A stretch of DNA of 11,437 nt from an uncultured Candidatus Competibacteraceae bacterium (GTDB lineage Bacteria > Pseudomonadota > Gammaproteobacteria > Competibacterales > Competibacteraceae), in assembly GCA_937872125.1 (NCBI GenBank), contig CALMNY010000500.1:1-11437 (forward strand), written 5' to 3'. A program made the translations under genes and the position numbers. The notes under the pieces are model-generated. The model had not been told where the DNA came from, made no database searches, and saw only the letters and a program-made list of their open reading frames with translations. Positions 1 through 11,437 of this stretch are shown here, in pieces. The stretch's first letter is position 1; each line of letters begins with the position of its first letter.

Positions 1-225
1 AGCTACTCATACATCCAAGACCGGGACAATAACACCGCAGGTGATCAGTGGCAGGCGAAAGTGCTGGCTGCCATCGAGTATGGAAATCAGCAGCGATCCT
101 CTCTTGAAAGAGAGAATCAGGCGCTTCTGGAACAGGTGAAGTCGCAGAGTGCCCGCATCGCGTATCTGGATGCGTCTCAACGCGTATCCGTTAAATCCAC
201 GGCATCAAAGCAAATGCCGAGATAA
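1..225 (+). CDS. C-terminal fragment of a coiled-coil protein, 5' end outside window
   Basis: The frame is open from the first base and stops at TAA 223-225, giving the last 74 residues of a protein that begins outside the window. The middle (about residues 30-60) is rich in Glu, Gln, Leu and Arg, with the run ERENQALLEQVKSQSARI, which reads as an amphipathic coiled coil; the tail is basic (SVKSTASKQMPR). No catalytic motif is visible. C-terminal coiled coils of this kind are common in plasmid partition or accessory proteins and in mobilisation proteins, but nothing here selects one family. Base composition is moderate, like the next 1.9 kb and unlike the GC-rich remainder. It is transcribed towards the minus-strand operon that ends at 441. 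I am confident it is coding and have no functional assignment. Confidence 0.65.
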   Translation, partial: SYSYIQDRDNNTAGDQWQAKVLAAIEYGNQQRSSLERENQALLEQVKSQSARIAYLDASQRVSVKSTASKQMPR

Positions 226-261
226 CAGGACGTACCCAGGCTTTTTTCACCAGCTGGAACC

Positions 262-396
262 GTGCTGATCATCCCGCCCTTCGATCCGCAATTATCCATC
301 GTGACCTCTGTCTATGACGTAAAACGCGAGACGATGCGCCGCGCGCTGGATCCGGTTGACAGCCGGCCGGCGGATGATGCAGATGAGGACCAGTAG
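262..396 (+). CDS. Possible small protein of 44 residues
   Basis: A GTG-initiated frame runs from 262 to TAG 394-396. It is in the same frame as the preceding fragment, separated from it by that gene's TAA and 36 bases without a stop. The product starts MLIIPPFDPQLSIVTSVYDV and ends in an acidic tail (ADDADEDQ), a natural-looking composition. There is no convincing Shine-Dalgarno site before the GTG. It could be a small downstream gene, a remnant of a longer C-terminus cut off by the TAA at 223, or chance. It ends 45 bases from the convergent gene that stops at 441. No family is recognised. Confidence 0.3.
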   Translation: MLIIPPFDPQLSIVTSVYDVKRETMRRALDPVDSRPADDADEDQ

Positions 397-440
397 CCAG
401 AATGAAACAGGGGTAAGGAAACAGAGCATCCCTGAGAGGG

Positions 441-1136
441 TCAGAGCGCCATCAAAGTTTTCACGAGTTGTGGCATAAACCCGGTACGTGCCGGCTGGTC
501 TTCTAAACCAAGCAATTGGTACACCTGGCCGCCAATGCCTGGCCGGACCTCCCCGGTTTCCGTGCGGCAATCGTCCACGGCGAAATAGACGAACTCGAAT
601 AAATCGGCGATCGCGGGCGGAAACTCGTCGCGTAAAGCGTTTTCAGCCCCGATATACATCACCGGAGAGACGACAAAAATCCTCTTCGGGGAGATTTGTT
701 CGATCAGAGCCAGAATATTCGTTCTGACAACACAGCTTGATGAAATAATCGACTTAACCACGACGAGATAGTCAGCATCCTGGTATCCAGGTTGCAAATA
801 ACGATGGACGACAGGCGCAATGCTACCATTGTTGAGCGGGTAGTGATTATTCCAAAAAATGGCCGCCAGGATGTCTCGTGAGCTGCGCAGCGATTCGATG
901 ACGCCCGCCGCCAGATAATCGGCGTCTTCCGCGGTGGCGACAACGAGGCATTTGCTTCCAATGGGTATGCTGCTGTCAACAATGCGACCGAGTTGGCGCC
1001 CGATATCGGTCATGGACGCGCGATACGCGCTCGGCTCCCGGGTGCTTTCCAGCAGAGTGTTCAGGGCGTTCTTTGCGCCCTCATCGGCACAAGACGCGAA
1101 TCTACGGTGCGCTTCAGGAGTACCCATGGTTGACAC
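441..1136 (-). CDS. Uracil-phosphoribosyltransferase-like protein with altered PRPP loop
   Basis: 231 residues from GTG at 1136 (an in-frame ATG at 1127 is an alternative; neither has a clear ribosome site) to TGA at 441. The second half follows the type I phosphoribosyltransferase fold of the uracil branch. A hydrophobic strand (DYLVVV, about 122-127) leads into a loop KSIISSSCV (128-136) where Upp enzymes carry DPxLATGGS. Next come IFVVSPVMYIGAE (153-165) and then VDDCRTETGEVRPGIGG (187-203), which matches the Upp ending that closes in PGLGDAGDR. The acidic residues and TGG of the PRPP loop are missing, so ordinary uracil salvage is unlikely; a binding, sensing or altered catalytic role is my inference. 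It starts 7 bases after the stop of the nuclease-like gene, so the two are probably co-translated. PRTase-like proteins are known partners in some bacterial defence systems, including certain retrons, but no reverse transcriptase is present here. Confidence 0.72.
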   Translation of the reverse strand: MSTMGTPEAHRRFASCADEGAKNALNTLLESTREPSAYRASMTDIGRQLGRIVDSSIPIGSKCLVVATAEDADYLAAGVIESLRSSRDILAAIFWNNHYPLNNGSIAPVVHRYLQPGYQDADYLVVVKSIISSSCVVRTNILALIEQISPKRIFVVSPVMYIGAENALRDEFPPAIADLFEFVYFAVDDCRTETGEVRPGIGGQVYQLLGLEDQPARTGFMPQLVKTLMAL

Positions 1137-1143
1137 CCAAGTT

Positions 1144-2067
1144 TCAGTTTGCCAATTCTGGCGCCGCCTGCAACATCAGATACGACAGCACCTGGTTTAA
1201 GGTTTGCGCCGTTGCCAACGCGGCCGGCATCTGCGCCTCGATCTCCACCTTCATTGCGATCGATAGTCCGCGGTATGTCACGACATAACGCCCGGCCTCA
1301 ATGTGCAGTTCGAGCCCTGCGTACTTCGAGCACAGGCCCGTGAGCCACGGTGGGGGCGGCCCTGGCGTGGGGTCAAGGCCCAGGAACAGATCGGGCTTTG
1401 ATATGTGTCGTGCCTGGCGCACCAGGTCATCTAATCGCGCAGCCGCCTGCGCCGAGAGCCACACCCCGAGCAGAAGCGAAAACACGGCGTTGGCGGTCGA
1501 TACATCATCCGATCCGCAGATCACCTTTAAGTTTTCTCTGACTGTATCCTCTCCGAATATGAGCTGCACGCTGGCAGGAAAATAGGGAAAGTACTCGCAC
1601 CGGAAGGAGGCGCGTCCGCATTGGCTAATCTTCTGGCGATTCGCCTCGGCCATGCTTGGGCAGGAGACCACGAGCACTTGGTTGCTCGTATCCACTCTGT
1701 GAAAATCGAGATCGATCACGGTCTGCCTGGCGAATCGCTCTGCGTGCGTCGGCGTCCATCGCGCGGCATTCCCGGATGAGTTCTTCGCTTGGTAATTAGT
1801 CTTGGTGTTATTCGACCGTTGCCGCAGACAGAGATCGTCGACGTAGCTGTACTCTTGGGCTGACAACGTAAAGTCGGCCAGGTTGTCTTCACTCGCAACG
1901 ATTTCGCAGATTTTCGCCACGGCAAAGAAATTTTCGTACACACCGCCTTTATGGTTGTTGTCACCGCCAGTCCTGATAGACCTGAGCTGTGTTACCGCAT
2001 CGCCGCCAAATTGCTGTTCGACGAATGCCTCTAACGCTTCAGTCTCAGCGCCATCACCAAGCATCAT
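1144..2067 (-). CDS. Putative PD-(D/E)XK-type nuclease-like protein (DUF4297/Cap4-like N-terminus)
   Basis: 307 residues from tandem ATG codons at 2067 and 2064 to TGA at 1144. Residues 41-95 carry an ordered motif set: GGVYENF with Glu45, then VDDL (76-79) with Asp77 and Asp78, then NYQAKNS with Gln93 and Lys95. The order E, DD, QxK after a glycine pair is that of restriction-endonuclease-fold domains of the DUF4297 type found in anti-phage nucleases such as Cap4; Lys95 would be the catalytic lysine. After about residue 120 the protein does not resemble a family I know. It contains a short hydrophobic stretch (AVFSLLLGVWL, 194-204) and a proline-rich linker (about 233-240). It is the first gene of an operon with the PRTase-like gene and has its own promoter (2106-2133). 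There is no evident Shine-Dalgarno site. Assignment to nuclease rests on the motif only. Confidence 0.7.
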   Translation of the reverse strand: MMLGDGAETEALEAFVEQQFGGDAVTQLRSIRTGGDNNHKGGVYENFFAVAKICEIVASEDNLADFTLSAQEYSYVDDLCLRQRSNNTKTNYQAKNSSGNAARWTPTHAERFARQTVIDLDFHRVDTSNQVLVVSCPSMAEANRQKISQCGRASFRCEYFPYFPASVQLIFGEDTVRENLKVICGSDDVSTANAVFSLLLGVWLSAQAAARLDDLVRQARHISKPDLFLGLDPTPGPPPPWLTGLCSKYAGLELHIEAGRYVVTYRGLSIAMKVEIEAQMPAALATAQTLNQVLSYLMLQAAPELAN

Positions 2068-2105
2068 AGTAGGAAAATGCGATGTGTTTGCAGAAATATA
2101 CTGTT

Positions 2106-2133
2106 AATTTAGCTTGACGCAACCTGATGTCAA
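2106..2133 (-). promoter_or_regulatory. Promoter of the nuclease-like/PRTase-like operon
   Basis: On the minus strand a perfect -35 box TTGACA (2128-2133) is followed after 16 bases by TAAATT (2106-2111, 4 of 6 to TATAAT). A start near 2099 would leave a leader of about 32 bases before the ATG at 2067. The surroundings are AT-rich compared with the DNA to the right. Confidence 0.55.
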
Positions 2134-2270
2134 CATTTATTGAGGGCAAGTGCGGCTCAGATCATAGACGCTCCCTCCCGCTCCTCCTTTAGGCGGGGTG
2201 GTTAGCGGACGGCAGTTCCGGTGCAAGACCGCGCGTGACACAGGAAACCTTGTGTCGTGGCGGCCCGCGG

Positions 2271-3054
2271 CTAGATCCACGGCTCGATGCAGAACGGGCC
2301 GGCCGGGTGGCGCGTGCCGACCGCGGCGCCACGGACATAAGCCACCGCCCACGCCAGACACGCGGCGCGCAATTCGGCCGTGAACGGATCGTTAGCGGCG
2401 GGCGCCGCCTGGGGCCCGATGATTTCCTCCGGTGCCACGTCCGCCAGACCGTCCCGGAAGAACCCTGCGCCGGCGTCGTCGTCCGCGGACAGCGGCGCCA
2501 GATCCTCCCAGCCCCAATGGTCATAGACGTCCCCCGGGGGCTCCGCCCCGGCCATGTCGGGTTCCTTGGGCAACAGGAGCGTATAGCACCAGTCCTGGCG
2601 CGGACCGTCCGGCGTGGCCGACACAAATCCCGACGTATTCCTCGTGCGCCGTCTGGTCTGTTCCGTGTTTCTGCCGCATCCAATGCCGCACCCAACCCCG
2701 CACGGAGTTCCTCCAGGGCCTTATCGGGTGGTAACCCCGTCCATGTGATGGTGCGTTCACCGTGACCCGACGTGTCCAAATCGTCGCTGAGCGACACTTC
2801 ACAGCACGCGCGCCACTGCCCGTCGGCCGGGTACAGCGCAGGCGAATGGACATGATTTCCTTCTTGACCCCGACCCACCCGGTATCGAAGGCCGTGGCGG
2901 ACGCCAGAGCGTCCTGTAACAAGGCGCGGAACTCGGGGTAAAACTCAAACGTACCATGGTGATCCCGGTCCCCCGCATAGCGGGCGAACTGCGCGGTGAA
3001 GTCTCCCGTCCCCGCCGGGCCCGTCCCCGCCGATTCGACCGTCGGTGCGTACAT
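2271..3054 (-). pseudogene. Unknown gene, about 260 residues, disrupted by two frameshifts
   Basis: Three overlapping minus-strand frames join into one natural-looking protein. The start ATG at 3054 (MYAPTVESAG) follows a strong ribosome site GGGGGAGGG. The first frame runs through FDTGWVGVKKEIMSIRLRC. A shift near 2825-2850 leads to a frame reading DGQWRACCEVSLSDDLDTSG and on to LRAGLGAALDAAE. A second shift near 2630-2690 leads to ATPDGPRQDWCYTLLLPKEP and an acidic, Ala/Asp-rich end at TAG 2271. Beyond each breakpoint the old frame degrades into Arg/Pro/Gly-rich noise, which is why I join them. I do not recognise the family, and there is no signal peptide or membrane segment. It points away from the ThyX-like gene and towards the defence-like operon. 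The shifts may be sequencing errors or true decay. Confidence 0.55.
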
Positions 3055-3145
3055 CGCACTACCCTCCCCCGCGCGTGGCGCTTGATCAACTAGGGGCTTT
3101 CTTGTCATTACCGACCATTTTTTTGCAAAGCGATTTAACCGGCGC

Positions 3146-3172
3146 TTGCATTTGCCACCCCCCTGCTACGAT
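3146..3172 (+). promoter_or_regulatory. Weak candidate promoter for the ThyX-like gene
   Basis: In the divergent gap 3055-3258 a TACGAT box (3167-3172, 4 of 6 to TATAAT) lies 15 bases after TTGCAT (3146-3151, 3 of 6 to TTGACA). The leader to ATG 3259 would be about 80 bases. The match is weak and the spacing short, so this is a suggestion only. Confidence 0.25.
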
Positions 3173-3258
3173 GCGGCGGTTTAGCGTCACCGGGCTCAGC
3201 GGTTTTCTGCCCAGGGCCCCTCCCCCTTCGCGCGCTCGCCCCATCCTTATCCCGCTCA

Positions 3259-3907
3259 ATGCACGCCACCTTACTCACCGCGACCGGGGATGATCACCTG
3301 GTCCTTACCGCCGGGGACGCCGCCGCTGCCGCCGCGGCACGGCCCGCCGCCACGCCGCGCGCGCGGCTGCGGGCGCAGGCGCGCCGCCAACGCTGGGCGG
3401 GCTTTCAGCGCCCGTGGGCGGTCTTCCGCCTGGACGCACCGGATTTTGTCGCCCAGCAGTGCCTGGAACATCTGGCGAACGCCCACCCGGCAGCGGCCGC
3501 CGGCGTGCTGCCGGCCCTCATTGCCCCCGGCCCCGCGGGCGCCCTGGCGCGCAGCCTCCCCGGGCCACCCCGCGGTCGGGACCCCCCTGCCCCCGGCCCT
3601 GCAGCGCGAAGCCAGCCTCCGCTACGACCAGGCCCTCGCGTGGGCCCGCTTCAGCTACCAGCAACTGCGCCTCCTCGGCGTCGACCCGCAGCAGGCCACC
3701 CAGGTACTGCCCCCGGCCCTGCGGGCGCCGTGGACGGCCGTGGGCTCCCGGTATGCCTGGGGCCGCGTCTGTCAGGCGTGCACCGCCCCCACCACCCCGG
3801 CGGAACTGCGCCGCCTGACCGCCCAGGTGGCCGCGGCCCTGGAAGAGCAGTTCCTGCTCGCCTGGGCGGAGCTGTGCGCCGCATTGGCGGCGCCCGCCAC
3901 CCCCTGA
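3259..3907 (+). pseudogene. Degenerate ThyX-like (flavin-dependent thymidylate synthase-fold) gene with one frameshift
   Basis: The first frame starts at ATG 3259 and is natural to about residue 101. The frame continuing one base later carries the rest to TGA 3905-3907. Removing one C from the C4 run at 3558-3561 restores ARSLPGHPAVGTPLPPALQ and gives 215 residues, a normal ThyX length. Two ThyX landmarks are visible. FRLDAPDFVAQQCLEHL (56-72) aligns with the family's F-x-APxFVARQxxRHR stretch, and WARFSYQQLRLLGVDPQQA followed by VLP aligns with the family's Y-x-xL-x-x-G-V-x-x-E-x-A-R-x-VLP region. The substrate-binding RHR is replaced by EHL, and the following Ser/Asn-Glu residues are also absent. 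Ordinary dTMP synthesis is therefore unlikely even if the frame is restored. The start lacks a clear ribosome site. It is followed 61 bases later by a MazG-like gene, consistent with a nucleotide-metabolism origin. Family assignment is by motif memory only. Confidence 0.5.
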
Positions 3908-3968
3908 AGACGGCCCCGCCTGCTCCCCCGCGGGGCACGCCCCTCCCCTCACCCCGTTTGAGCCGCCC

Positions 3969-4446
3969 ATGGATTCCCTGACCTATCTGACCGAGTCCGC
4001 CCTTACCGCCTCAGGCCAGTTCCACCCCGACCGGGTGACGCCGACGCACCTGCACGACACCCTGCAGACCCCTCCCCGCCCCCGCGGCCGCCGCGCCACA
4101 CGCCCCGGCGTCCGCGCCCCGGGAGCTCCGCGCGTTGCCCCCGGCACTGCTCCATGCCGTTCTCGGGCTCTACACCGAAGCGGCGGAAATGCTGGAGGCG
4201 CTGTGGGCGGCGCTGCACGGCGCGCCGTTGGATGAGATCAACCTGTTCGAGGAGGCGGGCGACCTGGAGTGGTACCTGGCGCTGTTGTAGCGCCAGCTGC
4301 AGCGCACCCCGGGGCAGGCGAAGGCCGCGAATATCGCCAAATTGCGCCAGCGGTACCCGGCGCAATTTGACCCCGGCCGCGCGCAGGTCCGCGATCTGGA
4401 CGCGGAACGGGCCCTGCTGGCCGAAGCGGCCCGCGCCACCCCGTAA
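3969..4446 (+). pseudogene. MazG-like nucleoside triphosphate pyrophosphohydrolase gene with a frameshift and an amber codon
   Basis: The ATG at 3969 opens MDSLTYLTESALTASGQFHP and remains natural through HLHDTLQT. The frame one base later takes over within the C-rich stretch near 4068-4095 and runs to TAA 4444-4446, giving about 158 residues. It contains the MazG metal-binding signature: LYTEAAEMLEAL (ExxE), then PLDEINLFEEAGDLEWYLAL (ExxD). After it comes the C-terminal ANIAKLRQRYPAQFD seen in phage and plasmid MazG-like enzymes. Such proteins hydrolyse NTPs or dNTPs to monophosphates. TAG at 4288-4290 interrupts the frame directly after WYLALL. TAG ends the neighbouring gene at 4496, so reassignment is not supported. 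The gene has a frameshift and a nonsense codon and is probably inactive, unless both are assembly errors. It shares strand and likely pathway with the ThyX-like gene. Confidence 0.62.
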
Positions 4447-4455
4447 CGCCCTCCC

Positions 4456-4486
4456 GCGGCGGGCGCGCCCGGTGCCGGCCCGCCGC
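4456..4486. terminator. GC-only hairpin between convergent genes
   Basis: GCGGCGGGC (4456-4464) and GCCCGCCGC (4478-4486) form a perfect 9-bp stem with a 13-base loop. It sits in the 49-base gap between the stop of the MazG-like gene and the stop of the convergent gene at 4496. There is no T tract on either side, so it may end transcripts weakly or protect 3' ends. Confidence 0.35.
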
Positions 4487-4495
4487 CCCGGAGCC

Positions 4496-5791
4496 CTAAT
4501 CCGTTAGCACCGTGACGGTATGGGGGTGATTGAGGATAAAGCCCTCCGGCTGGGCGCGGTCGTAGGCCGGGACCGACCGCAGCCCGCACGGGAGCTGGGC
4601 ACGCAGCTGCGCCACCCGGGTGGTAAACAGCGTCTGGTCCAGCCCCAGCGGATAGTCGACGGTGATGGCGATGGCCTGCGGTCCCGGCAGCGGCTCGTCC
4701 GCCGCGTCTGGACAACAGTACAGCGAGGCGTGGCGCACGAGGTGCGTGTCGACGAAGCCCAGGACCGCCAGCAACACCCGCCGCAGCGAGGAAGCCGCGT
4801 GCAACCCGGCGCCCACGCCGGGCAGCCCCCCGCCGGCGGTGGCATACGCCGCGTAATCGAAGCCCAGGGCGGTCAGCTGCGCCGGGTCGGCGAACAGCAG
4901 TTCGCCACCGCTCCCGGCCGGCAGTGCGGGCCCGGCGGGGGTCAGGGAAACGCACGCGGGATCGACCACGGCCCACAGCCCGCGCAAGCAATCCCGCTGC
5001 GCTTCCAGGGCGCGGTCGAGATCGAAGGGTAACAGGCCGGCCGCCCCCTGGGCGTACGCGGCGGCGATGGCGGCCGAGGCGGGCACGCTCACCTCCACCG
5101 CCCGCCCCCCGGCCAGATCCAGCCCGAGGGCGAACCCGCGGTCGGTGACGCGCGCCGGATGCGTGGCCCGGCAGCCGCCTTCCCAGAGAAGCGTCCAGGC
5201 CAGGCGCGCGGGCCGCACCGGCGAGCCCAGCTCATCGCACCAGCAAAAGCCCCCGGTGCCGAGGCGGTGCTCTGCCCGGACCCAGGCTTCCGGTCCCGCG
5301 GGGTCGCGTAACGTCCCGTGGAGGAGCGCCGCCCCCGGCGCCCCGCCGACCGCAGCGGGCGGCGCGGCATCCCCCGGCCACCCGCCCCGGGCGTAACGCG
5401 TGAGCAGCGGCGCCAACAACCCGGCGAGCGGCGCCCCGTCCCGTGCCTGGAAATCACAGCCGAAATACACCTCGCCATAATGCACGCCGAGGGGCGCCGC
5501 CGGCAGGACCCAGTCCGACGCCAGCGGTTCGAGCCGCGTCACCGCGTCCGCCGCGGGCGCCAGGCGCACGGCGGCGAAATAATGCGTCACCACCCGCGGG
5601 ATGGCATAGCACCCCGTCACGGTGACACCGAGCGCGGCCAGCTGGTCCCTTAAATCGCGGGCCAGGGGGGCCACCGCCACCGTCGGCGGGGGGGCGTCCC
5701 TGGCGGCATCCACGTCCGCCGGGTCGCTGACCCAGGCGAGCGGTAGCGACATCATCAGGGCAAAGTCGCGGTGAGCATTATTGTGCAGCAT
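4496..5791 (-). CDS. Unknown protein of about 431 residues
   Basis: An intact frame ends at TAG 4496. I place the start at ATG 5791 (MLHNNAHRDFALMMSLPLAW), because upstream of it the same frame turns into Gly/Arg/Pro-rich noise although it stays open to 6115. GGAGG lies 12 bases before this ATG, somewhat far. The protein is soluble-looking and Ala/Gly/Leu-rich, with many natural segments such as HYGEVYFGCDFQARDGAPL and GLDQTLFTTRVAQLRAQLP. It has no signal peptide, no clear membrane span and no catalytic motif I recognise. It is divergent from the Xre regulator at 6321 and has a plausible promoter at 6076-6104, which implies a long leader. Unlike the three genes to its left it needs no frameshift correction, which suggests it is still maintained. 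Confidence 0.7.
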   Translation of the reverse strand: MLHNNAHRDFALMMSLPLAWVSDPADVDAARDAPPPTVAVAPLARDLRDQLAALGVTVTGCYAIPRVVTHYFAAVRLAPAADAVTRLEPLASDWVLPAAPLGVHYGEVYFGCDFQARDGAPLAGLLAPLLTRYARGGWPGDAAPPAAVGGAPGAALLHGTLRDPAGPEAWVRAEHRLGTGGFCWCDELGSPVRPARLAWTLLWEGGCRATHPARVTDRGFALGLDLAGGRAVEVSVPASAAIAAAYAQGAAGLLPFDLDRALEAQRDCLRGLWAVVDPACVSLTPAGPALPAGSGGELLFADPAQLTALGFDYAAYATAGGGLPGVGAGLHAASSLRRVLLAVLGFVDTHLVRHASLYCCPDAADEPLPGPQAIAITVDYPLGLDQTLFTTRVAQLRAQLPCGLRSVPAYDRAQPEGFILNHPHTVTVLTD

Positions 5792-5936
5792 ATCGTCTTC
5801 AAACCTCCGGTGATAAGCAGCGGCACGGCCGCCAGTTCCTCCGCCGCGCGCTCCCTCCCGCATGAAAAGGGGATGGCGCGCTCTTCCGTAACCGCAGCCG
5901 GACCGAGTGTCCGGACCGCCTCCGTCAATCCGACCA
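5755..5936 (-). CDS. Possible small protein of 60 residues overlapping the next start
   Basis: In another minus frame, ATG 5936 to TGA 5755 reads MVGLTEAVRTLGPAAVTEER and then a balanced mixture including ELAAVPLLITGGLK. This looks far more natural than the frame extending upstream of 5791. It overlaps the 5791 start by 37 bases and contains that gene's GGAGG, the arrangement expected of a coupled leader gene. There is no clear ribosome site of its own. It could be a real small gene, the mis-framed N-terminus of the 431-residue protein, or chance. Confidence 0.28.
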
Positions 5937-6075
5937 TTGCCGGGCACGGGCGCCCTAGCGGCGGCGGGCCAGAAAGGGCCCGTCGCGGGGATGGAATGCG
6001 GGCGCATTTCGCCACCGTAAGCGCCCGCCTGAGGCAAATAATAACCAGCACTTCCTGTCGTTATTCCTAGGGCAC

Positions 6076-6104
6076 AGTATAGTGAATGCCGGCGCTTTTG
6101 GCGA
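6076..6104 (-). promoter_or_regulatory. Candidate promoter for the minus-strand gene ending at 4496
   Basis: On the minus strand TCGCCA (6099-6104, 4 of 6 to TTGACA) lies 17 bases before TATACT (6076-6081, 5 of 6 to TATAAT). A start near 6069 gives a leader of about 280 bases before ATG 5791, long enough to contain the possible small frame at 5755-5936. The same -10 sequence TATACT is used in front of the divergent regulator. Confidence 0.45.
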
Positions 6105-6134
6105 ATGCGCCACATCGAATTCGCGCAAAATTAA

Positions 6135-6153
6135 GGCCGGCAATGCAGGCCGG
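6135..6153 (-). terminator. Short hairpin resembling the 6784 terminator
   Basis: Read on the minus strand, CCGGC and GCCGG pair around a 7-base loop and are followed by CCTTAATTTT, a weak terminator shape. The core at 6135-6151 matches 16 of 17 bases of the strong terminator core at 6785-6801. The stem is short and no minus-strand gene clearly ends here. Confidence 0.25.
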
Positions 6154-6241
6154 AATAAACGCGGGATCGGGTCAGCGCGGGCCGGCGGACGCCGGCCGGT
6201 AACGCCGGGCACCGTGTGGTGGTGGCCGCGTGGGCGTCCTC

Positions 6242-6263
6242 TATACTAAGGATTCCTGAGTAT
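6242..6263 (+). promoter_or_regulatory. -10 box and overlapping operator-like inverted repeat of the Xre gene
   Basis: TATACT at 6242-6247 matches 5 of 6 positions of the -10 consensus and lies 73 bases before the GTG at 6321. No good -35 box is seen. From 6243 the half-site ATACTAAGGA (6243-6252) is mirrored around T6253 by TCCTGAGTAT (6254-6263), 9 of 10 positions complementary. A two-fold symmetric site placed over the promoter of a small Xre-type gene is the usual arrangement for autoregulation. Confidence 0.6.
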
Positions 6264-6320
6264 CCCCGCGACCGAAAATCACCACAATCTCGCAGCCCAC
6301 GTCGCGGGTGAGGTGACAGG

Positions 6321-6590
6321 GTGGGCGAGAGAGCGAGCAGTCCGGTGCCAAGACGCCTGCGGGAGGCGCGTGAACTCCTGGGGATCTCCCAGCGCGAGCT
6401 GGGGGTACGCGCCGGCCTGGATCCCGCCAGCGCCAGTACCCGGATTAACCAGTACGAGCGCGGGCGCCATGCCCCGGATTACGGCACCCTGGCCGCCCTG
6501 GCGCGGATCCTGCAACGGCCCGTTGCGTTTTTCTACGCCGAGGAAGACGGTCTCGCCGCCTGGATTTGCCGCTACGAGGCCGCCGCGTAA
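6321..6590 (+). CDS. Small Xre-family helix-turn-helix regulator
   Basis: 89 residues from GTG 6321, with GAGG about 8 bases upstream, to TAA 6588-6590. Residues about 11-66 are a Cro/C1-type HTH domain: RRLREARELLGISQRELGVR gives helices 1-2, ASASTRINQYERGRHAPDY gives the recognition helix and following turn, and LAALARILQRPVAFFYAEED gives the closing helices. The ending with FYAEED is typical of short stand-alone Xre proteins on islands and plasmids. An operator-like inverted repeat overlaps its -10 box, so negative autoregulation is likely. Whether it also controls the divergent gene at 4496-5791 is open, because no second perfect site was seen there. The gene is intact, unlike several neighbours. 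Confidence 0.88.
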   Translation: MGERASSPVPRRLREARELLGISQRELGVRAGLDPASASTRINQYERGRHAPDYGTLAALARILQRPVAFFYAEEDGLAAWICRYEAAA

Positions 6591-6605
6591 GCGTGCCGGC
6601 GGGAT

Positions 6606-6623
6606 CCCGGCCATGCGGCCGGG
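6606..6623 (+). terminator. Hairpin just downstream of the Xre gene
   Basis: CCCGGCC (6606-6612) and GGCCGGG (6617-6623) form a perfect 7-bp stem with loop ATGC, starting 16 bases after the TAA at 6588-6590. No T tract follows, so it is an RNA hairpin that may stabilise or end the regulator transcript. Confidence 0.35.
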
Positions 6624-6750
6624 TGGATCGGCCGCCGGTCCGCCTCCGGTAGCGCCCCCCTCCCGGACCGCCACACCGGCACCCGGCGCTCGCCCTGCCG
6701 ACCGCGCCCCGCCGGGAACGGGGATCCCCTCCGCAGCAGCCCGCCCCGCG

Positions 6751-6772
6751 CGGCGCCGGACGCCCGGCGCCG
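6751..6772. repeat. Perfect GC hairpin next to the terminator
   Basis: CGGCGCCGG (6751-6759) and CCGGCGCCG (6764-6772) pair perfectly over 9 bp around ACGC. It lies immediately beyond the T tract of the 6776-6802 terminator as read on the minus strand, and may act as a back-up block or as a terminator for the plus strand. Confidence 0.4.
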
Positions 6773-6775
6773 CGG

Positions 6776-6802
6776 AAAAAAAAAGGCCTGCAATGCAGGC
6801 CT
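6776..6802 (-). terminator. Intrinsic terminator of the 6879-8895 gene
   Basis: On the minus strand a perfect inverted repeat AGGCCTGCA / TGCAGGCCT (6784-6802) with a tiny loop is followed directly by a T tract (complement of the A run 6776-6784). It lies about 77 bases past the stop codon at 6879. This is the clearest Rho-independent terminator in the window. Confidence 0.85.
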
Positions 6803-6824
6803 GGAATGGCTTTAACGGGGGAGA

Positions 6825-6871
6825 GCCGCCCGGCCCCGGGGGATGAAGGTCACCCCCGGACGCCGGGCGGC
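6825..6871 (-). repeat. Long two-tier hairpin just after the 6879 stop codon
   Basis: An outer stem GCCGCCCGGC (6825-6834) with GCCGGGCGGC (6862-6871) is 10 bp and perfect. Nested inside is CCGGGGG (6836-6842) with CCCCCGG (6853-6859). On the minus strand it begins 7 bases after the stop codon at 6879-6881. It could protect the 3' end of the message or assist the downstream terminator. Confidence 0.5.
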
Positions 6872-6878
6872 GGACGGC

Positions 6879-8895
6879 TCAGGCCGGTACCCCGGGCATG
6901 GCGCGTTGCCGGGCGCCATCGGCATAGCCCGTCGGACTTGCCATGACGACCGCCTCGGCGCACTTGGGACAGCCCAGCACCTTGGCCAACTTTGCGGTCA
7001 ACCCGTAGTGGGTGTCCCCCAGGCGCACGCCGGTGACCCCTAGCCGGCCCATGGCCTGCCGGGCGCCCGCCTGGACCAGCTTGGCCACCCCCTCGACGTA
7101 GGCGGTGTCCAGGCCCTCGATGGAATCGAGGACCAACTGGTCGGTTGTAGCCCGCCAGACCCAGCTTTGGGCCACTACCTGGGAGCGGTACTCCACCACC
7201 CAGAAGGCCGAGTGTGGGCTGTCCACCCCTGCGCGGGCACAGGACCGGGCCGCCCCGTGGAGGTGCTGAACAGTAGGTCACCACCCCCAGCATGGGGCCC
7301 AGCGGATCGTCGTGCGCTAGTTGGCGCAACAGCCAATCCCCCTCGTGCCCGACCTGCGCGCCGGTGACGCGCACCGCCGGCACCGCCTCCCAGGCCTTCA
7401 GGGGACCGCGCATCAGCCCACGGTAATCCTCGAACTGGCTTTGCCCCAGGCCGACCTTGGCCGCGATGGTCGCGACCTCGAGGTCGCCCAGGGTCTCGAT
7501 GCCGGCGGACAGCAGTCGCGCCGCCACCTGGCGAAGCTCCGTCAGGGTCGCGGGGACGCGACCGAGCTCGCGCTCGATGTCCCCCCACTGCCCCGCCCGG
7601 GCCAGGGTCTTCTTGGGGTGCTTGAACACCCGCCGGCGCCAGCCGGCGGCGTCGAAGCGCCCGGTGGGGAGCGGGAACTGCCCCAGGTCATGGATGCCGT
7701 CGGCATCCAGCGTCGCCCCGTGCAGGGCGGCGAAGTGCTGCATCTCGCCCAGACGGCCGAACAGCCGGGCGAGGTTCATCGCCGGCTGGCGTAGCCCGCC
7801 CGGATGATCCGGCCCGGCCAAGGGCGCGACGCCGGCCCGGACGCACAGCGCCCGGTAGATCCCCATGGGCAGTCCGGCCACCGCCAGCTCCTTGGCGATC
7901 CCCGCCGGCAGATCCACCCCTTGCAGGTACTGCCACTGCAGCCGCGACGGGGTGTGCTGGGCACGCCGCCAGCGCGGACCCTTCTGCAGCCGGTCGACCT
8001 CTGCCCAGTTGAGGTCCATGAGGCCAATGACGGCCAGCGTGGCGCGCGCCTCGAGGACGCCGCTGCTCACCGCCGCCCACCGCGCCCAGGGCGCGATGCG
8101 ACCCAGGGCCACCAGCGCCCGTTTGGCGAAGCGCCAGGCCCCGCCCTTGACGTTGGCCTCCGCCCAGCGCACGCCGCGCAGCACATGTGCGACGCGGGCC
8201 GCCGAATCGCGCTTGGATACCCACTTGCGCATGGGCGCATGGGCCACCTCCGGGCGCAGCCGATACAGGCCGGCGACGGTCCGGCGGAACTTGCGCCCAT
8301 CCCGGCAGCCGGCCTGGTACCAGGCGCGCGCCACCTGATCGGCAGACACGCCGTAGTGGCCGGCCCCCTCCCAGCCGCCCCGGTGGCGCGCCGGGACCCC
8401 GGTGGGGTCGGTGGCCGGCAGGGGGTCGCCGTAGCGCCCGCCGGCACAGGCGGCCAGCACCGTCTCCGCCGCGACGAACGCCTTGGGATCGACCTTGGCG
8501 TCCAGCAGCGCCGGCCAGTAGGCCAGCCCGCGGTCGGCCGCGCGGCGCTTGAGCCCCCGCAGCCGTCCCTGGCGGCGGCCCTCCAGGCGCAGCAGAGTCG
8601 TCAGCGCCCGCACGGGCTGGGCGGTGCCGCCGACCAGAGCGAGGTACGCCTGGTCGTAGTCCCGCGCCGCCTCGCCCGTCACCCCCGCCCCGCGGGCGAA
8701 GCACTCCGGGCTGGGGAGCCGCAGCCGCGCGAGCGCGGCCAGGGGGCGGTCCCCGGCGTCATGCACCGGGAAGGCGGCCCCGGCGGCGCGGGCGACCAGG
8801 GTGTCTTCCGTGACGGCGACTTCGGCCAGGAATACGGCCTCGCCCATGTCCCCGATCACGGGGAAAAAATTACAGTGGAAGTTCAAGTTGGACAT
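6879..8895 (-). pseudogene. Large accessory protein with GNAT-like C-terminal domain, one frameshift near 7270
   Basis: The start ATG 8895 (MSNLNFHCNFFPVIGDMGEA) follows GGGGGAGG at good spacing. The first frame is natural for about 541 residues and then reads VVTYCS before turning to noise. The frame continuing from there runs to TGA 6879 and reads CAR, GVDSPHSAFWVVEY, VVAQSWVWRAT, LVLDSIEGL and finally SPTGYADGARQ. Allowing a lost TG or an extra T at about 7267-7272 restores a Cys-(Cys)-Gln-His-Leu-His-Gly junction. The pattern CCQ, AQSWxW, (F/D)-S-I-E and Y-x-D-A-x-x-Q recalls a GNAT-like C-terminal domain of phage and mobile-element proteins; this rests on memory. The N-terminal and central parts (Arg/Trp/Ala-rich, for example GGAWRFAKRALVALGRIAPW) are unrecognised. 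The restored length is about 670 residues. The gene has its own terminator. The shift could be a sequencing error. Confidence 0.6.
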
Positions 8896-9262
8896 GCCTA
8901 CCTCCCCCTGACGGGTGTTGCATCGGGGCCTGTGACCCGAGGGAAAAACAAAAACCCGATGAGGCAGGCATGCCAGCGCCCCGTGGGGGAACATGGCCCT
9001 CACGGGGGGAGCGCGGCGGCGCCGCCGCGGCAGGAAGTCAACACCCACCGCACGGGGGGTCGACCTTCAGACAGTTCGCGCGAACGCGCGACCCGAAGAA
9101 CATCGCTGTTGGGGACTGGCCAGCTCCCAGGCGAGCGGCGATCGCGAAAATACGGGGGTAACCGCGGCGCCCGGGTGGGGCGTTCACGCCCGCTCCGGGG
9201 TCGTCCTGCCGCGGTAACGCCGGTTATCGCCCGCGCGCCGGTTAAGGAGCCGGGCGGGCCGC
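8896..9262 (-). other. Intergenic leader with palindromes upstream of the 8895 gene
   Basis: This 367-base stretch holds no convincing gene; open frames here are Arg/Pro-rich. It contains, from left to right, the ribosome site of the 8895 gene, an A-rich tract GGGAAAAACAAAAACCC (8941-8957), the palindrome GGCATGCC (8967-8974), an inverted repeat CCCCGTG / CACGGGG (8979-8985 and 9001-9007), and a perfect 18-bp palindrome at 9012-9029. Read on the minus strand these form a structured leader. TTGACT (9036-9041) resembles a -35 box, but no -10 box lies at the right distance. Confidence 0.4.
9012..9029. repeat. Perfect 18-bp GC palindrome
   Basis: CGCGGCGGC is followed immediately by its reverse complement GCCGCCGCG. 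It lies about 117 bases upstream of the ATG at 8895 in the minus-strand leader. It may be an operator or a chance product of GGC-rich DNA. Confidence 0.4.
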
Positions 9263-9748
9263 TTACGGCGTCGCCGGCCGCGGGGCCGCCAGCGCCGCCA
9301 CCTTGACCCGGGCCACCCCCGTCCCCTCCATGGCCAGGTGGCGGGCGGCGGCGCGCGACAGATCGATAATCCGGCCGCGCCGGCGCGGACCCCGGTCATT
9401 GATGGTCACCGCGACCGTCTTGCCGTTGGCGAGTTTGGTCACCTGGACCCGGCTGCCGAGGGGCAGCTGGGGATGGGCGGCGGTCAGCGCGTGTTGATTG
9501 AAGGGTTTGCCGCTGGCAGTCTTTTTGCCATGGAAGCCCGGGCCGTACCAGCTCGCCAGGCCGATCTGCGCCCCGCCCCCGCCGCCGGCCCGCGGCGCCT
9601 TGGCGGCGACCTTGCGCGGGGCAGCATACGCCGGCAGCGCCGGCAGCGCCGGCCCCAACGTCAGCGCCAGCACCAGCGCCAGATGGCTCACCCCCCAGCG
9701 GCGGGCGGCGCGGTGGCGCGGGCGCCAGCCGCGGGCGGGCCCGTTCAT
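9263..9748 (-). CDS. rlpA: Secreted RlpA-like double-psi beta-barrel protein
   Basis: 161 residues from ATG 9748 to TAA 9263. An Arg-rich N-terminus is followed by a hydrophobic core (SHLALVLALTLGPALPALPA, 21-40) and a likely signal peptidase site after AYA; there is no lipobox. After a Gly5 linker comes the RlpA barrel: GLASWYGPGFHGKKTASG (63-80), LTAAHPQLPLGSRVQV (88-103), TINDRGP (115-121) and GRIIDLSRAAARHL (125-138). RlpA proteins cleave denuded glycan strands or bind peptidoglycan in the periplasm. His92 and Asp118 match the conserved catalytic positions, but the usual Glu after TxSG is Lys81, so activity is uncertain. There is no SPOR domain, unlike chromosomal RlpA. It follows the 143-residue gene by 26 bases and probably shares its promoter. 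In an accessory region it could help conjugation or phage-like passage through the wall. Only a weak ribosome site (GGGGG) is seen. Confidence 0.85.
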   Translation of the reverse strand: MNGPARGWRPRHRAARRWGVSHLALVLALTLGPALPALPAYAAPRKVAAKAPRAGGGGGAQIGLASWYGPGFHGKKTASGKPFNQHALTAAHPQLPLGSRVQVTKLANGKTVAVTINDRGPRRRGRIIDLSRAAARHLAMEGTGVARVKVAALAAPRPATP

Positions 9749-9774
9749 GGCGCCCCCGGCGCGGCCAGCGCCGC

Positions 9775-10206
9775 TCAGGCCGGCCATCCCGCCAGCCGCT
9801 GCTGCAGGGTGGCCATGTCGGGCGCATCCTCCAGCACCCCTTCCAGGAAGGCGGCGGCGGCCAGCGGCCAGCGGCCAACGCGGAATGGCGCCGCGTCCGC
9901 GGAGCCGGCGGCGGTGATCACCAGTTCCTGCGGCGCCCGCTGCAGCGCGGCATACAGCGGCGCGCCGAACCGTGCGGGCTGGGCAAGGATGGCGTCGACC
10001 GCGACCGGGCGGTCGCCCGGCCACACCAGATCGACGCCCGGCCGCACCCACCCAGGCAGGGCGGCGACAAACCGCCAGTCACCCCCCCCGGCCACGCGGC
10101 GGGCGGCGGCAAAGGCCGCGGCGGGGGTGGCGGCCTGCACCGGCCAGCAGGCCAGCTGCCGGCACGGCGCGCCATAGCCGATCACGGTAAAGGGTCGGAG
10201 TGACAT
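9775..10206 (-). CDS. Unknown 143-residue protein upstream of the RlpA-like gene
   Basis: ATG 10206 (MSLRPFTVIGYGAPCRQLAC) follows GGGGAG at 6 bases; the frame extends upstream to 10287 but without a ribosome site. It ends at TGA 9775. The sequence alternates hydrophobic strands and Ala-rich helices (AAFAAARRVAG, VDAILAQPARFGAPLYAAL, FLEGVLEDAPDMATLQQRL) and looks like a compact soluble domain. Two cysteines occur near the N-terminus (15 and 20), and there is no signal peptide or membrane span. I do not recognise a family. It is the first gene of a two-gene unit with the RlpA-like protein and has a plausible promoter at 10238-10267. A role linked to the wall enzyme is possible but rests only on position. 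Confidence 0.72.
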   Translation of the reverse strand: MSLRPFTVIGYGAPCRQLACWPVQAATPAAAFAAARRVAGGGDWRFVAALPGWVRPGVDLVWPGDRPVAVDAILAQPARFGAPLYAALQRAPQELVITAAGSADAAPFRVGRWPLAAAAFLEGVLEDAPDMATLQQRLAGWPA

Positions 10207-10237
10207 CGGATGCTCCCCTGCAATTAATCGGTAATGC

Positions 10238-10267
10238 ATTGTAGTCCGGCATGGCTCCAGCTGTATA
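10238..10267 (-). promoter_or_regulatory. Candidate promoter of the 143-residue/RlpA-like unit
   Basis: On the minus strand TATACA (10262-10267, 4 of 6 to TTGACA) is followed after 18 bases by TACAAT (10238-10243, 5 of 6 to TATAAT). The leader to ATG 10206 would be about 25 bases with GGGGAG in place. The local AT-rich patch stands out in GC-rich DNA. Confidence 0.5.
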
Positions 10268-10317
10268 GCGCGCCGTAAACCGACCACCGCCTGCGCGGTC
10301 CGGCGGGGCCGAACTGC

Positions 10318-10571
10318 TCAGTAAGCCCCGTCCAGCACGGCAGAGTCTTCCGTGCAGGAACCAGCCCCCAGCGGCGGGCCGGCGGGTGGTGCCGGCGACG
10401 GTGCCCAGTCGGGTGGCAGACGGGTAATCTGAAAGGTATAGAGCGTTAGCGATCGCGCCGTCAAGGGCGGCGGTATTTCCGGCGCCGTCGTCCGGGGGGC
10501 GCCAGTACGTCCGTGGTCAGGAACAGCTGGCAGACCAGGGGCAATCCGGCCAGCAGAGGTGCGAATGACAT
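10318..10571 (-). pseudogene. Small secreted-type protein, about 84 residues, frameshifted in a G6 run
   Basis: ATG 10571 opens a hydrophobic start (MSFAPLLAGLPLVCQLFL, then TTDVLAPP) that looks like a signal peptide or single membrane anchor. The frame then enters an Arg-rich end and stops. If one base is added at the G6 run 10494-10499 (C run on the coding strand), it continues as TTAPEIPPPLTARSLTLYTF, then QITRLPPDWAPSPAPP, and ends at TGA 10318. The restored mature part is Pro/Thr-rich. No clear ribosome site precedes the ATG (CCCCC stands there). I do not recognise a family. It occupies a gap that would otherwise be empty, between the 143-residue gene and the second Xre gene, and lies on the same strand as the RlpA-like unit. 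Confidence 0.4.
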
Positions 10572-10655
10572 GGGGGAATTCAACCGCAAAACAGGGGTGA
10601 GCAATGGCTGCGTACCGCCGGCGTTCCTGTCACCAAAGGTCAGAAACTATTTGCA

Positions 10656-10669
10656 GCGAAGCGCTTAGC
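10656..10669. promoter_or_regulatory. Operator-like palindrome upstream of the second Xre gene
   Basis: GCGAAGC followed by GCTTAGC forms a 14-bp inverted repeat with one mismatched pair and a perfect AAGCGCTT centre (10659-10666). It lies 63 bases before ATG 10732. An Xre regulator often binds such a site in its own promoter. A TTGCAG box (10652-10657) overlaps it, but the -10 box is unclear. Confidence 0.4.
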
Positions 10670-10731
10670 CATACAGTAGCATAGCGTAGGCGTTGCGGCG
10701 AACCGCCCGCTGACCTTGCTACAGGAGACCT

Positions 10732-11226
10732 ATGTCCGAGATCATCCACCCCCCCGCGTTTGGCGCGCGCATTGCTTCCCGGCTGGAGAAAACCCAGCTC
10801 ACCCGGCATGAGCTGGCCAATACGCTCGACGTGACCCTGGCCACTGTCAACCGCTGGTTGAGCGGTGAGACCTGCCAGGCGCGGGCCGCCTTTCTGCCAG
10901 CGCTCGCCGAAGTGCTGGAATGCGAACTCCGCTGGCTAACCACCGGGGAAGGCCCGGAGCAAGGCGACGACGCCCTGAGTCCCAATCGCCACGCCGTGAT
11001 CCGCGAAGCGTATGCCCTGGCGGAAAACAAACTCACCGCCTTGCTGTTCCTGATCGATGGTCTGAAAAGTTCGGAAAGTGACGAGCTGGTGGCCGTCCAA
11101 TTGGCGCTCGATGACGATGAGCGCGCGATCATCCATCACCTGCGGCGCGCCCCCCCGCCCCTCCGCCCCCTGCTGCGGCAGCTGAGCGCGCTGAGCGCCG
11201 CGTCCGGGCGCGAGCACCCGAGCTGA
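10732..11226 (+). CDS. Xre-family helix-turn-helix regulator with C-terminal extension
   Basis: 164 residues from ATG 10732, preceded by AGGAG at good spacing, to TGA 11224-11226. Residues about 8-66 form a Cro/C1-type HTH: FGARIASRLEKTQLTRHELA, then LDVTLATVNRWLSGETCQAR with the recognition helix, then a closing helix and LRWLTTGEGP, an ending typical of phage-repressor-like Xre proteins. The remaining hundred or so residues are mostly helical, with ENKLTALLFLIDGLKSSESD and DDDERAIIHHLRRAPPP. They lack the Ser/Lys pair of LexA-type peptidases, so RecA-driven self-cleavage is not expected; this part may serve dimerisation or ligand sensing. A palindrome upstream suggests autoregulation. It is divergent from the small secreted-type gene and the RlpA-like unit, which are natural candidate targets. 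Confidence 0.85.
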   Translation: MSEIIHPPAFGARIASRLEKTQLTRHELANTLDVTLATVNRWLSGETCQARAAFLPALAEVLECELRWLTTGEGPEQGDDALSPNRHAVIREAYALAENKLTALLFLIDGLKSSESDELVAVQLALDDDERAIIHHLRRAPPPLRPLLRQLSALSAASGREHPS

Positions 11227-11437
11227 ACCACGGCGCGTCCGCCCCCTCCCCTGCCAGCGTTCCCTCTGCCCCCTGATACCGCCCTCAAACACCACGCCCT
11301 GCTCGCCGCCCTCGTCGCTACCCAGACCCTGTGCTGGCTGCCGCTCCTGAGCAGCTGGTGGCTGGCCCTCGCGCCCCCCGCCGGCGCTAAGCGCCCCCCT
11401 CAGCCAAAATCCGCGCCCGGGAACGTGGCAAGGTAGT
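11227..11437 (+). other. Open frame encoding a hydrophobic segment, no ATG/GTG/TTG start
   Basis: Directly after the TGA of the second Xre gene the same frame stays open to TAG 11435-11437. It contains ALLAALVATQTLCWLPLLSS, then WWLALAPP and a basic Pro-rich tail. That is the shape of a small single-span membrane protein. No ATG, GTG or TTG lies in frame, only CTG (11251 and 11266), and there is no ribosome site. It may start at CTG, be a remnant, or follow a frameshift. Confidence 0.25.

Follow-up and report, generated by a model that had tools for sequence, protein, structure and literature searches.

A nuclease candidate and a remodelled uracil phosphoribosyltransferase-like protein form a conserved, apparently mobile gene pair

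The window analyzed here is the whole of an 11,437-nucleotide stretch from an uncultured Candidatus Competibacteraceae bacterium (contig CALMNY010000500.1, labelled C500, positions 1 to 11,437), whose genome bin comprises 553 contigs and is 80.7% complete. It carries two adjacent minus-strand genes that form a real unit. Gene 1 encodes a candidate nuclease of the Cap4/DUF4297 type, and gene 2 encodes a protein with the fold of a uracil phosphoribosyltransferase (UPRT). On balance, we favor a compact, horizontally moving conflict module, in which gene 1 would be the DNA nuclease effector and gene 2 its cognate, UPRT-derived regulator. Its function is best read as defense, or as something resembling a toxin-antitoxin system, with a UPRT-like protein that would restrain the nuclease.

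Two adjacent genes kept together

Gene 1 (1144..2067, minus strand) opens with an ATG codon and encodes 307 amino acids. Gene 2 (441..1136, minus strand) encodes 231 amino acids from a GTG codon or 228 from an ATG three codons in (position 1127). As a sequence-only reading of the window had noted, the second gene starts, at 1136, 7 bases after the stop of the first at 1144, on the same strand. Because each has many homologues, both open reading frames (ORFs) are considered real genes. The same reading placed the pair under a single well-formed promoter. A promoter-like site (TTGACA-16-TAAATT, 10 of 12 matches) does precede gene 1 (2106..2133, minus strand) and is the only one in positions 1 to 2500, but 1.0 ± 1.0 such sites are expected there by chance. 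The difference in base composition was borne out, with a GC content of 0.558 across 441 to 2067 against 0.688 to 0.753 in 154 overlapping windows of the same length between 2134 and 11437; positions 1 to 440 (0.545) are as low as the gene pair. Known RNA families and tRNAs were not found in the window.

A scan for gene 2 across 84,980 species genomes yielded 19 loci, and a gene-1 homologue lies directly upstream on the same strand at all 19. One of these, in the cyanobacterial locus L018, is broken over two frames, possibly through decay or sequencing error; L018 was excluded from the distance correlation, the residue-conservation counts and the tree described below. Both plasmid records with gene 2 also carry gene 1. 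From the other side, a gene-1 search of the phylum matched 2 of 398 genomes, namely the window's own and one of the other 397 (G525), in which gene 2 adjoins gene 1. Gene 1 also turned up at four more distinct loci in searches of viral contigs and plasmids; gene 2 is present at each, which makes 6/6 gene-1-seeded loci with the partner present. The pairwise protein distances of the two genes across 22 loci, including the near-identical rows of the window and locus L002, correlate with an r of 0.90, a value reached in 0 of 5000 permutations. Two candidates were set aside: L025, with 30% over a part and without a gene-2 profile match, and G891/L072, with an E value of 2.4e-4. Homologues of the two genes are thus neighbors at nearly every locus examined, in agreement with the proposed adjacency.

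A nuclease candidate with a rebuilt UPRT-like partner

Gene 1 contains the motifs GG-x-x-YE, YVDDL and YQAK in the order that had been pointed out. Its predicted structure (pLDDT 92.0) shows the layout of a PD-(D/E)xK nuclease at residues 39 to 134, in line with the fold expected from these motifs. Codons 45 to 96 (1780..1935, minus strand) hold the predicted catalytic residues E45, D77, D78, Q93 and K95, which are identical in 53/53 aligned homologues; Lys95, previously singled out for mutation, is the conserved motif lysine. When the model was compared with VIA-align, in whose lists a missing family is not thereby excluded, the 12 best rows all belonged to the Cap4/DUF4297-type nuclease group, and the nearest structural relatives include cyclic-nucleotide-bound Cap4. 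At the sequence level, PF14130 (Cap4_nuclease) gave no match to gene 1 in Pfam at E values up to 10 and was not among the 17 families matched by 31 gene-1 homologues (E up to 1), although HMMER filters discard most matches above approximately 0.1. Relatives matching PF14130 occurred in only 2 of 143 genomes, too few for a profile comparison. The gene-1 profile had no match among PDB sequences up to an E value of 10, and neither gene matched Pfam over cut-off or any NCBIfam. The label DUF4297-like therefore holds at the level of the predicted fold and not as a PF14130 match. The structural model supports gene 1 as a Cap4/DUF4297-type PD-(D/E)xK nuclease at fold level, and its type suggests that it would act on DNA.

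Gene 2 has the overall fold of a UPRT over most of the protein and a weak profile match to 1vst (E value of 0.0084). Since a profile-profile comparison (hhalign) with four UPRTs, two of them on the wrong strand, gave no match, its homology to UPRTs is drawn from the fold, a colinear alignment and the 1vst match. A search profile built on ten distant gene-2 members collected 1,644 proteins at E values of up to 1e-3, and the best 120 of these 1,644 have no functional name. For one alignment (A2), 54 proteins were hand-picked from a list of 120 gene-2 proteins; a second alignment (A1) was made without P0001, a near copy, and P0017, a fragment. Among the 54 members, 14 match PF14681 at E values up to 1 (best 0.00029), and the window's own protein gives none. 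Six relatives (P0154, P0161, P0165, P0182, P0183 and P0226), 308 to 328 amino acids long, carry an extra DUF2188 domain (PF09954).

In comparison with Upp, gene 2 has exchanged the pyrophosphate (PPi) loop, the flexible-loop arginine, the phosphoribosyl pyrophosphate (PRPP) motif and the aspartate of PGLGD for a different conserved set. In the PRPP motif DPMLATGGS, P131 is replaced by K, T135 by S and S138 by C in 54/54 members, and D130 by V, A, I or T. At the PPi loop PILRAG and the flexible loop, R78 is replaced by E and R103 by W, each in 54/54. The uracil-binding loop PGLGD reads PGIGG, with the P and both G residues kept and D199 replaced by G in 54/54. Residues K125, S129 and C132 of gene 2 are kept in 76/76 homologues, and 21 of its 38 invariant residues fall in four loops with hand-chosen limits, which together cover only 57 of its 228 residues (p 1e-5). 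Judging from these alignments, the catalytic PRPP/PPi loops are rebuilt into a different, strictly conserved putative pocket. Because the PRPP/PPi site is replaced, uracil phosphoribosyltransferase (PRTase) activity is unlikely, and gene 2 was rejected as a working UPRT on account of its replaced PRPP, PPi and flexible-loop motifs. The earlier description as an Upp-like PRTase is accurate for the fold and calls for correction as regards the likely activity.

These substitutions bear on the idea that gene 2 is an ordinary pyrimidine-salvage UPRT gene that lies behind a nuclease gene by chance. This would fit the UPRT fold seen through most of its length, and the host bin, at its stated completeness, contains no PF14681 match. 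That absence is not unusual, since only 9 of 36 genomes of the class match PF14681 over cut-off, 3 of them strongly. With DPMLATGGS, PILRAG and R103 replaced and the pairing with gene 1 constant, we regard a chance arrangement as very improbable.

Alternatively, gene 2 might possess a new enzymatic activity (acidic E67/D68/D70, W92, K125, C132) and produce or modify a nucleotide signal that activates gene 1, as the cyclase of cyclic-oligonucleotide-based antiphage signaling systems (CBASS) activates Cap4. An active site that is replaced yet fully conserved suggests a new activity over decay. In addition, the relatives of gene 1 include the cyclic-nucleotide-bound Cap4 noted above, and gene 1 continues past approximately residue 230 with an additional C-terminal region. 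However, at about 75 residues this region falls far short of the remainder of Cap4 (targets 415 to 439 long), and the retention of gene 2 alone, described below, is ill-suited to a pure activator. We therefore rate an activating enzyme as rather improbable.

Proposed regulation and asymmetric loss of gene 1

In the favored module of nuclease and UPRT-derived regulator, gene 2 would bind and restrain gene 1 in the resting cell. UPRTs are oligomers. Gene 2 probably senses a ligand, and a change of that ligand in the remodelled pocket would release gene 1 or permit its dimerization, after which gene 1 would cut DNA. The nuclease domains of HerA-DUF4297 dimerize in a configuration like that of the active "inward-facing" Avs3 pair, according to the available part of PMC11291478. 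The ligand would most likely be a pyrimidine base or nucleotide altered in level or form on infection. This is a guess, favored because the PG-x-G loop is kept and because of the fold; a pyrimidine-based infection signal is possible because sk1 infection of Lactococcus strongly lowers the expression of pyrimidine synthesis operons within minutes, as given in the accessible text of PMC10986495. Inhibition by gene 2 and the nature of its ligand are thus both conjectural, and an anti-phage role is suggested by the effector type and by part of the genomic contexts. A bolder version is a salvage enzyme turned infection sensor, whose pocket, no longer binding PRPP, would read a pyrimidine nucleotide, or such a nucleotide altered by a phage, and gate the Cap4-type nuclease, with some phages keeping only the sensor as an antidote. 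We hold this version possible but tentative.

It follows from the proposed restraint that gene 2 alone would be harmless and that phages could retain it as an antidote, and the viral contig L057 fits. Starting 27 bases ahead of gene 2, contigs L057, L058 and L060 are 100% identical over 2.8 to 3.6 kb to L059, which carries the whole pair; a tRNA-Tyr and other DNA replace gene 1 in the three. Together with L061, these phage-like contigs keep gene 2 and the last approximately 10 codons of gene 1 beside the tRNA-Tyr (L057:9962-10669 against L059:3905-5511). Since L061 shows the same structure at an upstream identity of 93 to 94%, an assembly error is disfavored. The lone gene 2 on these contigs is possibly a phage-borne antidote.

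Loss is also seen in cyanobacteria. Of 339 sampled genomes from the phylum to which G748, the source of L018, belongs, 9 gave a strong gene-2 match, G748 among them. Gene 1 lies in one frame in five of the nine (L064, seemingly the same record as L022, and L065, L069, L070 and L071), is broken in three (L066, L067 and, going by L018, G748) and is not found nearby in one. In L066 and L067, which belong to one lineage, gene 2 is intact and only the part of gene 1 after profile position 223 remains; L066 also holds an insertion sequence-like transposase ORF. At L077, other parts of gene 1 were not found within 19 kb. At L068, gene 2 stands behind hsdR-, hsdM- and hsdS-looking genes (by eye), with no gene 1 within 19 kb. 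None of the only 6 loci found from the gene-1 side has gene 1 unaccompanied by gene 2, and the three changes seen in solo gene 2 are too few to inform on selection. A lone gene 2 in a cyanobacterium (L076:8600-9307) lies directly behind an hsdR-hsdM-hsdS-looking operon (by eye).

The survival of intact gene 2 beside a broken or lost gene 1 would also fit a plain toxin-antitoxin (addiction) module, with gene 1 as toxin, gene 2 as a protein antitoxin that holds a plasmid or prophage, no infection sensing and a leftover UPRT pocket. The pair consists of two adjacent, co-directed genes kept together, as in toxin-antitoxin systems, and it occurs on a 10-kb plasmid, a conjugative plasmid and a prophage-like contig and among tra genes. 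In contrast, gene 2 is most strongly conserved in the remodelled pocket, a constraint that a mere structural scaffold would not need, and several chromosomal copies lie beside other defense systems. Moreover, phage proteins activate Avs3, which is related to the effector, as stated in the part of PMC11291478 that was available. A pure addiction module consequently appears unlikely, though it is the most serious of the alternatives to the regulated conflict module.

Signs of mobility, genomic contexts and relation to known systems

The module shows signs of horizontal movement. The pair is sporadic, with a range covering Gammaproteobacteria and Cyanobacteria, and in the class sample, apart from the window's own genome, gene 2 occurred in 0 of 368 genomes. 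In a midpoint-rooted tree, in which row L020 is very long, G525 clusters with four cyanobacterial rows (support 100/96, branching order within unsettled), and Actinobacillus is placed among Moraxellaceae rows. Positions 274..2254 of the window are 98.3% identical to L002, from another genome bin, with an unrelated upstream flank, and likely represent a mobile cassette. The 2.9-kb upstream flank of L002 is absent from the window's genome apart from two matches of approximately 90 bases, and window positions 2255 to 5500 are absent from the genome of L002 apart from 51 bases; both genomes are bins, for which incompleteness or mis-binning is possible. Only the side at 2254 is a junction, as the other end of the match is the L002 contig end. 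Upstream of this near-identical copy, L002:1527-2720 encodes a helix-turn-helix protein with an ImmA/IrrE-like peptidase region (by eye). Phage records searched by protein gave no match, nor did E. coli genomes at the DNA level with the Chimaeribacter pair (L004) as query.

Several loci place the pair near defense genes: Cas5e (L003), a CBASS cyclase with E1-E2 (L008), an IIG/DrmMI-like methylase with a DruE-like helicase (L021) and type III restriction genes (L053). In G525, to which these type III genes belong, the pair stands behind genes with the Pfam domains N6_N4_Mtase and ResIII/RE_endonuc, as in a type III restriction system. Other neighbors include TraC and TraN of an F-type transfer region (L016), a DUF927/primase protein (L007) and, on a contig of a viral collection (L024), a recombinase-like ORF (by eye). 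Two observations speak against this picture of the surroundings: housekeeping-type genes adjoin the pair at L006, L012, L014 and L020, and 15 of 20 large neighboring ORFs, hand-picked from 185 and searched one by one, had no PADLOC match at 1e-8. PADLOC tallies of mad3 (2/87 and 4/98 ORFs), mad6, PDC-S02, PDC-S07, PDC-S67 and Cas proteins except Cas5e were untraced to loci and not used as evidence.

The restriction-modification (RM) neighbors raise the alternative that the pair monitors an adjoining RM or helicase system and fires when this is blocked, like PrrC, an anticodon nuclease beside type I RM. Such neighbors occur at L021 and L053 and, by eye, at L076 and L077. At other loci none was identified within what was covered, in part by tallies that show only 25 families each, and the pair also lies on a small plasmid and beside the housekeeping genes mentioned above. 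A back-up role for RM is accordingly considered quite improbable. In two cyanobacteria (L021:11-11915 and L077:1-9860), the pair or its remnant occurs with a large methylase-like and a very large helicase-like protein (L021 by PADLOC, L077 by eye), which suggests a recurrent larger locus.

At least five anti-phage systems employ nucleases of this fold, and the trigger differs from one system to the next. Cap4 works with a CD-NTase and, in CBASS, has a SAVED receptor in the same chain, whereas the shorter gene 1 is paired with a UPRT-like protein. The HerA-DUF4297 anti-phage complex is also among the closest known systems. Among the other nucleases, Lamassu LmuA is regulated by an SMC-like protein, Avs3 by a STAND ATPase and that of Hachiman by a helicase. 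Gene 1 lacks the described Cap4/DUF4297 partners (SAVED, HerA, LmuB, HamB, Avs), and its constant partner is gene 2. Anti-phage loci that likewise use a PRTase protein are DprA-PRTase of P2-like phages (PMC9122126) and retron PRTase effectors (PMC12548924); in the accessible parts of both reports, the PRTase is the proposed effector alongside DprA or a reverse transcriptase, whereas gene 2 accompanies a nuclease and has no UPRT-type PRPP motif. PRTase domains are also present in polyvalent proteins of mobile elements, as the available text of PMC5512222 states. A figure legend on DefensePredictor (PMC13092281) names a PRTase, whose system might overlap with the pair. PMC12904381 and PMC7159879 contained none of the terms looked for.

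The sequence-only reading knew the pairing under no name, and our searches agree: PADLOC-DB 2.0.0 (2023) gave no match for gene 1 and one chance-level row for gene 2 (E value of 0.035), and no description of the pair was found in the literature searched, mostly without subscription papers and without supplements. The module is thus a known effector class with a partner of which no record was found. It adds a further kind of partner for such nucleases, derived from a nucleotide-salvage enzyme, and makes infection sensing via pyrimidine pools a testable idea, for which phage-like contigs retaining only the presumed antidote are now available.

Elsewhere in the window, overlapping partial frames in the high-GC DNA adjoining the module (2189 to 3108, minus strand, and 3259 to 4507, plus strand) are possibly frameshifted or decayed genes. 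Two helix-turn-helix-like ORFs (6321 to 6590 and 10732 to 11226, by eye) are of a kind found on mobile elements or plasmids, and the C-terminal part of an ORF at 9263 to 10051 (minus strand) resembles an RlpA-type protein (by eye).
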